From the NCBI GenBank assembly GCA_002727315.1, contig PBWR01000006.1:124001-188000 (forward strand): 64,000 nucleotides of DNA. The letters run 5' to 3'. The translations under genes were made by a program, and so were the position numbers. The notes below the pieces were generated by a model that was not told the DNA's origin, made no database searches, and worked only from the letters and a program-made list of their open reading frames with translations. Shown piece by piece: positions 8,025 to 50,181 of this stretch. Each line of letters starts with the position of its first letter. Positions within the stretch are counted from its first letter, which is position 1. The stretch comes from Alphaproteobacteria bacterium. GTDB taxonomy: Bacteria > Pseudomonadota > Alphaproteobacteria > UBA6615.

Positions 8025-8255
8025 TTGCGGACGACCCACTTGTCTGGCGACCGAATATCCCGGCAGGAAGCCCTTCGACATCGATTGAACGAGCTGCGCA
8101 GCGAGCATCGCGACCTGGACGATGTCATCGCCCGCATCCTCGATGAGAAGCCGTTCGATCAGCTTCAGATTCAGCGACTGAAGAAATGCAAGCTCGGTTT
8201 GAAAGACGAGATTCTGTCGATCGAGAGCCAGCTGCTGCCCGACATCATCGCGTGA
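8025..8255 (+). CDS. YdcH family protein (DUF465), second divergent copy
   Basis: The product is up to 76 residues with the DUF465 pattern: LNELRSEHRDLDDVIARIL, then FDQLQIQRLKKCKLGLKDEI. No ATG exists in the frame. TTG at 8025, a second TTG near 8038, or one just before LNELRSEH are possible starts, so the N-terminus is uncertain. It is divergent from the other DUF465 gene and 7 nt from the convergent end of the GGDEF gene. Confidence 0.65.
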   Translation: MRTTHLSGDRISRQEALRHRLNELRSEHRDLDDVIARILDEKPFDQLQIQRLKKCKLGLKDEILSIESQLLPDIIA

Positions 8256-8262
8256 GCGACGA

Positions 8263-9012
8263 TCAGCTTCCGTTGCTGGCGCGGCCCTGCTTGTTCTCGT
8301 ACATGGCCTCGTCGGCGCGCTGCGGAGCCTCGCCCGCATCCTTCTTGCCCGAGAAGGAATAGGCGCCGTACGACACGGACAAGGGCACGCTCGTACTCTC
8401 CCACTCGAACGGCGTGGCGGCAATCAGTGCCGACAGGGATACGGCATTTTCCGCCGCGGCCGCAACGTCGGCCTGGGCCAGAATCACCCCGACCTCGTCA
8501 CCGCCGAGACGACTGACAATATCGGATTCACGGATATTCTCGGCCAGGAGTTCGGCGATCTGGCGCAACGCAGCGTCACCAGCCGCATGACCAAAGCGGT
8601 CGTTGATTTCCTTGAACCCGTTGATGTCGAAATACAGAACGCTGAAATTCGCGCCATAACGCTCGGCATATGCAACCACGCGGCTCATTTCGCGGACGAA
8701 GGCGCGCCGGTTCGCCACGGGTACGAGCGTATCCTCATCGGCGGGCTTCTCGAGATAGGTAATCCGGTGCCGCGCCTAGCTCAGTTCCTCGCGCATACGC
8801 TGCACTTCGTTCATCAGCATATCGAGGGCCTGGCGCACTTTCGGCGTGAGATCGGCCTCTGTCAGTCCTGCGATCGTCGCCACATCGGCCGCCGCGCGCG
8901 CCGGAGCCGTCGTATCGGCGCCCGTCGCGCCATAGGCCTGGCTCGCCTGTTGGGCAGAACGAACCGGGCTGGCCACGCTCTTGCGCTGGGGCCGTGTACG
9001 TTCAATCTTCAT
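8263..9012 (-). pseudogene. GGDEF-domain protein (diguanylate cyclase type) interrupted by an in-frame amber codon
   Basis: Two open segments lie in the same frame, separated only by TAG at 8778-8776. The first, from ATG 9012, gives 78 residues: a basic, Ala-rich tail, then a helix (LTPKVRQALDMLMNEVQRM). Reading through the TAG continues ARHRITYLEK, then DTLVPVANRRAF, the start of a GGDEF domain. Further on are an RESD inhibitory site and, five residues later, RLGGDEV. The active loop ends in Val instead of Phe. The helix continues smoothly across the stop, so the codon was probably CAG (Gln). A 151-residue product from GTG 8718 is possible but would lack the beginning of the domain. Either a recent nonsense mutation, a sequencing error, or read-through. 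Confidence 0.75.
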
Positions 9013-9217: not shown

Positions 9218-9712
9218 ATGGCCGACACGCCTGCGGTCGGAATCATCATGGGAAGCCAGTCAGACTGGGAAACCATGCAGCACGCCGCGGAAACACTTGA
9301 TTCTCTGGGAGTTGCCCACGAGGTCAAGATCGTCTCCGCGCACCGCACCCCCGACCGGATGTCGGCCTATGCCAAACAGGCGCGCGAGCGGGGTCTGAAG
9401 GTGATCATCGCGGGCGCGGGCGGTGCCGCCCACCTGCCCGGCATGACCGCTTCCATGACCAGCCTGCCGGTATTCGGCGTTCCGGTGGAAAGCAAGGCGC
9501 TATCCGGCATGGACAGCCTGCTGTCGATCGTCCAGATGCCGGCGGGAATCCCTGTCGGTACGCTGGCCATCGGACGTGCGGGTGCAGTGAATGCCGCATT
9601 GCTCGCGGCATCGGTCGTCGCCCTTGGCGATCCCGGTGTTGCAGAGGCGCTCGATGCCTGGCGCGAGAACCAGACCGGTTCAGTGGCCGACGAACCCACA
9701 GACGCGTCCTGA
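9218..9712 (+). CDS. purE: N5-carboxyaminoimidazole ribonucleotide mutase, catalytic subunit
   Basis: The product is 164 residues, normal for class I PurE. It converts N5-CAIR to CAIR in de novo purine synthesis. Signatures: GSQSDWETM near the N-terminus, SAHRTPDRM near residue 45, and the phosphate-binding [12 protein letters not shown] near residue 75. The ATG at 9218 follows AAGGAGAAGCAC; the longer open frame upstream runs through the promoter and is not coding. purK begins 4 nt after the stop, so the two are cotranscribed and translationally linked. Confidence 0.96.
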
Positions 9713-48531: not shown

Positions 48532-50181
48532 ATGATTGGGTTCGAGACACACCCGGACCGCTACAAGCACTGGAACCTGGCCATCGACGGCCGGGTCGCC
48601 ACGCTGACCCTCGATGTCGACGAGACCGGGGGGATCGCGCCGGGCTACGAATTGAAGCTCAATTCCTATGATCTGAGCGTCGATATCGAGCTCTACGATG
48701 CGATCCAGCGGCTGCGCTTCGAGCACCCGGAGGTCGGCGCGGTGATCGTCACCTCGGCGATGGAACGAGTGTTCTGCGCCGGCGCCAACATTCCCATGCT
48801 CGCCAGCTCGCCCCATGTCGCCAAGGTGAACTTCTGTAAGTTCACCAACGAGACGCGCAATTCCATGGAAGACGCCAGCAAGAATTCCGGTCAGAGCTAT
48901 ATCTGCCTGATCAACGGCACCGCCGCGGGCGGCGGCTACGAGCTTGCGCTGGCCTGCGAGGACATCCTTCTGGTGGATGACGGCTCCAGCGCGGTCTCCC
49001 TGCCCGAGGTGCCCCTGCTCGCCGTCCTGCCCGGCACAGGCGGCCTGACGCGGGTCGTGGACAAGCGCCGGGTGCGCCGCGACCGGGCGGATTTCTTCTG
49101 CACTACCGGCGAGGGTATGCGCGGCAAACGGGCGCTGGAGTGGAACCTGGTGGACGAACTGGTGCCCCGCTCGAAGCTGGCCGACGTCGCGACCGAGCGG
49201 GCGACGGCGCGCGCCGAGGCCTCGGACCGCCCGGCGGACGGCGCCGGCGTTGCTCTCACCCCGCTGGACCGCACCCTTGGTGCGGACGATATCACCTACC
49301 CGAACCTGGCGGTCACGATCGACCGGGACAAGGCCACCGCAACCCTCGCGGTGCGCGCACCGGCCGACCCGCCGCCCGCCGATCTCGCCGGCATCCATGC
49401 CTAGGGGGTCGATTTCTGGCCCCTGGCGATCGCCCGCGAACTGGACGACGCAATCCTGCACCTGCGGTTCAACGAGACCGAGATCGGCACCTGGGTGTTC
49501 CGCACGGAAGGCGAAGCCGATCTCGTCGCGGCCTGCGACACGCTGCTGGCGGATCACCCGGACAACTGGCTGGTACGCGAGATCACGCTTTATCTGCGCC
49601 GCACCCTGAAGCGGATCGACGTCTCCTCGCGCTCCTTGATCGCCCTGATCGAGCCGGGCTCCTGCTTCACCGGCACCCTGCTCGAACTGGCGCTCGCCGC
49701 CGACCGGTCCTACATGCTCGACGGCACCTTCGAGGGCGCCAACACGCCGCCTGCGACCCTGCGCCCGACGGCCATGAATTTCGGCCCGCTGCCCATGTGC
49801 AACGGCCTGACCCGGCTACAGACGCGCTTCCTGGGCGATGACGACGCCCTCGACGCCATTGCGGCGGAGACGGGCAACGAATTGGAAGCGCTCAACGCCG
49901 AGGAGCTCGGCCTCGTCACCTTCACGCCCGACGATATCGACTGGGACGACGAAGTGCGCCTGGCGATCGAGGCCCGCGCCGCATTCTCCCCCGATGCCCT
50001 GACGGGCATGGAGGCGAGCCTGCGCTTTCCCGGGCCGGAGACCATCGAAAGCAAGATCTTCGCCCGCCTGAGCGCGTGGCAGAACTGGATTTTCCAGCGC
50101 CCCAACGCCGTCGGCGAAGGCGGTGCGTTGGAGCTGTACGGGACCGGAAAGCAACCTCAATTCGATCGCAAACGGGTTTGA
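48532..50181 (+). pseudogene. boxC: Benzoyl-CoA-dihydrodiol lyase BoxC, interrupted by one in-frame amber codon
   Basis: Two segments in one frame total 549 codons, the size of intact BoxC, which cleaves the 2,3-epoxybenzoyl-CoA ring to a dehydroadipyl-CoA semialdehyde plus formate. The first 290 residues are a crotonase domain (CAGANIPMLASS, then NGTAAGGGYELALACED). TAG at 49402-49404 stands after GIHA. Codons beyond it read GVDFWPLAIARELDDAILHLR, the normal continuation. No other stop or shift is seen. CAG to TAG is the simplest explanation. Cotranscribed with boxB (4 nt gap) and the benzoate-CoA ligase. Function is lost unless the TAG is read through or is a sequencing error. Confidence 0.9.

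Follow-up and report, generated by a model that had tools for sequence, protein, structure and literature searches.

The interrupted GGDEF gene and its neighbours

Here we describe a gene for a GGDEF-domain protein on the minus strand of a 64,000-nt stretch of DNA (the window, to which all positions refer unless a contig is named), which is part of contig C24 of the source assembly, G000. The reading frame opens with an ATG at 9012-9010, meets an in-frame TAG at 8778-8776 (codon 79) and closes with a TGA at 8265-8263. Under translation table 11 it is called as two ORFs, one at 9036-8776 (86 aa, TTG start) and one at 8718-8263 (151 aa, GTG start); read through the TAG, it encodes 249 aa, and a GGDEF domain (residues 92-244, 123 bits) is the sole Pfam match of the product. 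The original prediction had already described a GGDEF gene split by this TAG, placed the stop between a helical N-terminal region and the GGDEF domain, and read REELS-stop-ARHRITYLEK straight across it. All of this was borne out, and the strand, which had not been given, is now added. The features of the locus are as follows.

8263..9012, minus strand: very probable GGDEF pseudogene; read through, 249 codons and a TGA (reading frame and Pfam)
8776..8778, minus strand: in-frame TAG, codon 79; nine of the 14 family orthologues have CAG here and one, that of G023, has TAG (alignment)
8779..9012, minus strand: the 78 N-terminal codons 5' of the stop; none of the 37 otherwise invariant columns altered (alignment)
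8266..8775, minus strand: GGDEF half 3' of the stop; changes at 8 of 106 otherwise invariant columns, including L90P, G167S, F174V and L230P (alignment)
8081..8257 (span approximate), plus strand: small downstream gene, taken to be DUF465/YdcH-like; syntenic marker (synteny)
9218..9712, plus strand: divergent neighbour, taken to be purE-like; syntenic marker (ORF and synteny)

The read-through domain resembles GGDEF (diguanylate cyclase) proteins (PF00990 / TIGR00254) in matching well over the cut-off. The gene differs from them in that it is interrupted before the domain, carries GGDEV in place of GGDEF, and has a read-through product that reached no NCBIfam equivalog at its cut-off. An active diguanylate cyclase would be expected to have an intact domain and a GG(D/E)EF motif in frame with the N-terminus; here the stop at codon 79 intervenes and the motif is altered.

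Orthologues and stages of loss beside purE

Comparisons were made within a set of 24 genomes of the same taxonomic family, and a search at the level of the order returned the same 24. An orthologue was present in 15 of them, G000 included. At codon 79 the 14 other orthologues have CAG (nine), AAA (two), CAA, CGC and TAG (one each), so that the position is a sense codon in 13; CAG, for Gln, which had been proposed as the likely ancestral codon, is thus the usual one in relatives. Homologues beginning after the stop, which the original prediction had named as evidence against itself, were not seen, and that explanation was rejected: rows in which the N-terminus is covered share the same MKI/MKV start. 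Because the arrangement of neighbours (the DUF465/YdcH-like gene and purE) is the same in relatives, the orthology is firm. Internal stops were found in four orthologues, those of G000, G023, G021 and G009.

The syntenic site displays the gene at successive stages of loss. Among 22 purE loci (the purE search gave no match in G003 and G023), 14 have the orthologue adjoining purE, one has a relic and seven have no gene; the DUF465-like gene lies on the other side of the orthologue in 13 of the 14. Of these purE-adjacent orthologues, three (G000, G009 and G021) contain internal stops, and the one in G020 is divided by a frameshift at residue 170. The relic, in G017 (L153, 1275-1406), is a 132-base piece of GGDEF sequence between the DUF465-like gene and purE. 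In G007, G010, G013, G015 and G019 these two genes stand side by side and the GGDEF gene is absent, while in G001 and G004 neither the GGDEF gene nor the DUF465-like gene is found near purE. In relatives, the GGDEF gene has disappeared from this site on more than one occasion. The situation is like that of nonsense pseudogenes in genomes under reduction, in which single-base stops of all three kinds appear in recognisable genes, and functionally linked genes decay together while relatives keep intact copies; nothing essential differs, except that the stages at one syntenic site are unusually complete (22 loci).

Constraint on either side of the stop was assessed in G000 against the other eight members of the two closest genera. 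The otherwise invariant columns changed in G000 all lie after the stop (0 of 37 before, 8 of 106 after), a pattern of relaxed constraint. The eight changes are L90P, M112V, G167S, F174V, K189N, E224K, L230P and Q240N, and it is F174V that converts GGDEF to GGDEV; three intact congeners have 0, 1 and 1 changed invariant columns in total. A relative-rate comparison with the three congeners gave 0 G000-only changes before the stop and 9 after it, against 5-6 and 3-5 congener-only changes, respectively (Fisher p 0.029, 0.009 and 0.014, in three tests that share the G000 row and are therefore not independent). Taken alone, the post-stop excess is not significant (binomial p 0.15-0.42). In the protein tree the branch to G000 measures 0.163, which does not exceed the path to its congeners (about 0.15-0.19), so the decay is recent or mild. 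With Fisher tests that share a row, a non-significant post-stop excess and a short total branch, the lesion in G000 is probably young.

One orthologue, in a genome of another genus, has TAG exactly at codon 79 (G023, L006, G023:C278). It lies on a 3.8-kb contig, begins 7 bases from the contig end, and has the same five codons before the TAG as G000 (CGC GAG GAA CTG AGC). A single TAG inherited by both was rejected, because the tree groups G000 with its congeners and places G023 beside G011 (support 84), and CAG stands at codon 79 in every other tree member of both genera; a sole ancestral TAG would need several reversions. Since the tree separates them, the two TAGs are best explained by parallel C-to-T changes. 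In the three intact orthologues listed, a stop can arise by 15-19 transition-type single changes, of which 12-15 affect Gln codons, so the chance of the same codon being hit in any one pair is roughly 1 in 15-19; with four stop-containing orthologues, and hence six pairs, one such coincidence is unremarkable. The post-stop half of the G023 gene has 0 of 98 otherwise invariant columns changed, from which its TAG would be very recent, polymorphic, an error, or tolerated.

Stop codons, other broken genes and the cyclic-di-GMP system

Broken genes on C24 were counted by combining family searches with a scan for stops flanked on either side by coding signal in the same frame. In G000 the scan covered 422,757 bases and picked out 46 stops; in the congener G006 it covered 400,000 bases and picked out 31. 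Most of these in both genomes are neighbouring genes in one frame, sorted by eye, so that these are not automatic counts of broken genes. In G006 one candidate was judged broken by eye alone (GNAT-like, TGA at C3:194849). On C24, seven broken genes have a recognised family: four with TAG, two with TAA and one with TGA. Besides the GGDEF gene, they are listed below together with an EAL scrap.

48532..50181 of the window, plus strand: boxC broken by TAG 49402-49404, terminal TGA 50179-50181 (TIGR03222 match 1-548, full length across the stop)
G000:C24:20179-21480, minus strand: EAL-domain gene broken by TAA (read-through frame with three TAA)
G000:C24:409597-410574, minus strand: Peptidase_C93 gene, TAG upstream of the domain (family search)
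G000:C24:198318-199481: dienelactone-hydrolase-like gene broken by TAA (family search)
G000:C24:238460-238975: Cupin_5 gene broken by TAG (family search)
G000:C24:318016-318921: CBS-BON gene broken by TGA (family search)
G000:C24:381091-381198, plus strand: remnant of an EAL domain, 36 positions from its C-terminal end (EAL search)

In both the GGDEF and the Peptidase_C93 genes the stop precedes the domain, and in the CBS-BON gene it sits past the best-scoring CBS stretch and ahead of the BON domain. The first of the three TAA codons in the EAL gene is five codons in and may fall outside the gene. Two further candidates, with TAG at C24:245948 and C24:405743, gave no Pfam match and were excluded from the seven; with them the TAG share becomes 6 of 9.

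The original prediction had pointed to the same lesion type in boxC, and its TAG was found as described, so that the genome does hold more than one such lesion. None of 20 other boxC family matches contains an internal stop, and the boxC TAG is therefore private to G000 among these. The further claim, that repeated TAG lesions exceed what chance would give in a stable genome, did not survive. From the codon usage of 17 window genes of our own choosing (8,554 codons), 63-65% of single-base nonsense changes are expected to yield TAG at kappa 1, 2, 4 and 8. CAG>TAG makes up 9, 15, 22 and 29% of nonsense changes at these values and is the commonest single nonsense route at kappa >= 2. Counting in-frame TAG against TAA and TGA, the check that had been proposed, gave TAG in 4 of the 7 family-supported genes against about 64% expected; the broken genes carry all three stops. 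TAG enrichment is accordingly rejected, and the premise of a stable genome fails because G000 is in the midst of losing genes.

Amber recoding is rejected as well: RF1 is intact (prfA model 522 bits against a cut-off of 423, in an open frame without a stop), and among 37 ARAGORN tRNA matches in the 87%-complete assembly there was no CTA anticodon (CUA tRNA). The gene resembles a case of stop-codon reassignment in one respect: its in-frame stop occupies a position where most relatives encode Gln. Against it, G000 keeps RF1, no CUA tRNA was found, other genes are broken by TAA and TGA, and TAG remains the principal terminator; in 357 coding-like ORFs on C24 the terminators are TAG in 165, TGA in 149 and TAA in 43. 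According to PMC8629427, known bacterial code changes reassign UGA, and pseudogene stops arise mostly by transitions from particular codons; both points fit an ordinary amber pseudogene.

The gene described here is the one GGDEF match in the 87%-complete, 27-contig G000 assembly. There are two EAL matches, of which the sole sizeable one has internal TAA codons and the other is the scrap listed above, and a PilZ search of the same assembly found none. Since the assembly is 87% complete, the absent part could hold further genes for GGDEF or PilZ proteins, or for a suppressor tRNA. The congeners G002, G005 and G006 have 5 GGDEF and 4 EAL matches each, with no internal stops, and the congeners G001 and G004 have no match to either domain. 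Altogether, neither GGDEF nor EAL was matched in 7 of the 24 genomes (G001, G004, G007, G013, G015, G017 and G019). Peptidase_C93, to which the c-di-GMP-controlled protease LapG belongs, had no match in these seven, nor in G005, G008, G016 and G021. Genome size tracks GGDEF only loosely: G013 (3.5 Mb) has none and G010 (1.6 Mb) has six. In G009 (1.7 Mb, 61% complete) several GGDEF and EAL genes contain internal stops of all three kinds. G000 seems to be shedding the whole cyclic-di-GMP system. Literature listings on c-di-GMP gene decay in reduced genomes held nothing on this lineage.

Readings of the codon-79 stop

The GGDEF gene is very probably a nonsense pseudogene, its amber codon read as a stop, amid a cyclic-di-GMP system that is itself dying in G000. 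The original gene would have encoded a small cytoplasmic protein of the diguanylate-cyclase type, with an N-terminal helical region followed by the GGDEF domain. A single C-to-T change presumably turned a Gln codon into amber. The intact RF1 would read codon 79 as a normal stop, allowing only the 78-residue N-terminal fragment and presumably no full-length protein; the catalytic half would then have begun to drift, and a relaxed need for c-di-GMP may drive the loss. This reading rests on the stop itself, on orthology backed by synteny, on an intact RF1, on the changes after the stop and on the lack of any other GGDEF or PilZ match in the 87%-complete assembly; the gradient of loss beside purE, the broken EAL and Peptidase_C93 genes and the expected predominance of TAG among nonsense changes also speak for it. 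Counted against it are the unlengthened G000 branch, the shared row of the Fisher tests, the incompleteness of the assembly and the recurrence of TAG in G023 without decay. This is ordinary gene loss caught midway, with no new genetic trick, and the pointer to amber recoding turns out to be misleading. The process itself is familiar. One gene at successive stages of loss beside purE, and makers and breakers of c-di-GMP decaying in the same genome, nevertheless offer a useful natural series for the order in which a second-messenger network is lost.

It is improbable that the true gene is intact and that the TAG stems from strain-level polymorphism or from a mistake in sequencing, assembly or binning, in an assembly of metagenome type. 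A single base decides between TAG and CAG, those near relatives with records consulted are labelled MAGs, and the assembly is in 27 contigs and 87% complete. Nevertheless, the GGDEF motif and other invariant residues are independently damaged, and only after the stop; the EAL gene has several stops, orthologues are broken in other genomes too, and the gene lies inside a 428,757-base contig. Equally improbable is a real stop upstream of a dead GGDEF half with the 78-residue fragment still made and selected as a small protein. The untouched invariant columns before the stop, set against those changed after it, would fit such selection, and the relative-rate comparison points the same way. The sites are few, however, the N-terminal half of the gene is variable in all relatives, and the gene is wholly gone at 7 of the 22 purE loci.

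Very little weight falls on the idea that in some species (that of G023, and that of G000 until it began to decay) codon 79 works as a leaky amber switch between the helical region and the catalytic domain, at which rare readthrough would set a very low dose of cyclase. The slightest chance goes to an amber that is read through now, by programmed or leaky recoding, to give low-level full-length cyclase in both genomes; readthrough keeps a marginal place because of G023, where there is no post-stop decay and where, in a second genus, TAG occupies the same codon after five identical codons, but it has against it the intact RF1, the lack of a CTA tRNA among the matches, the use of TAG as the commonest ordinary terminator, the UGA reassignments that make up all bacterial code changes known to PMC8629427, the post-stop changes in G000, the sense codon in 13 of 14 family orthologues, and the 15-19 transition routes per intact gene that make parallel hits at one codon not improbable.
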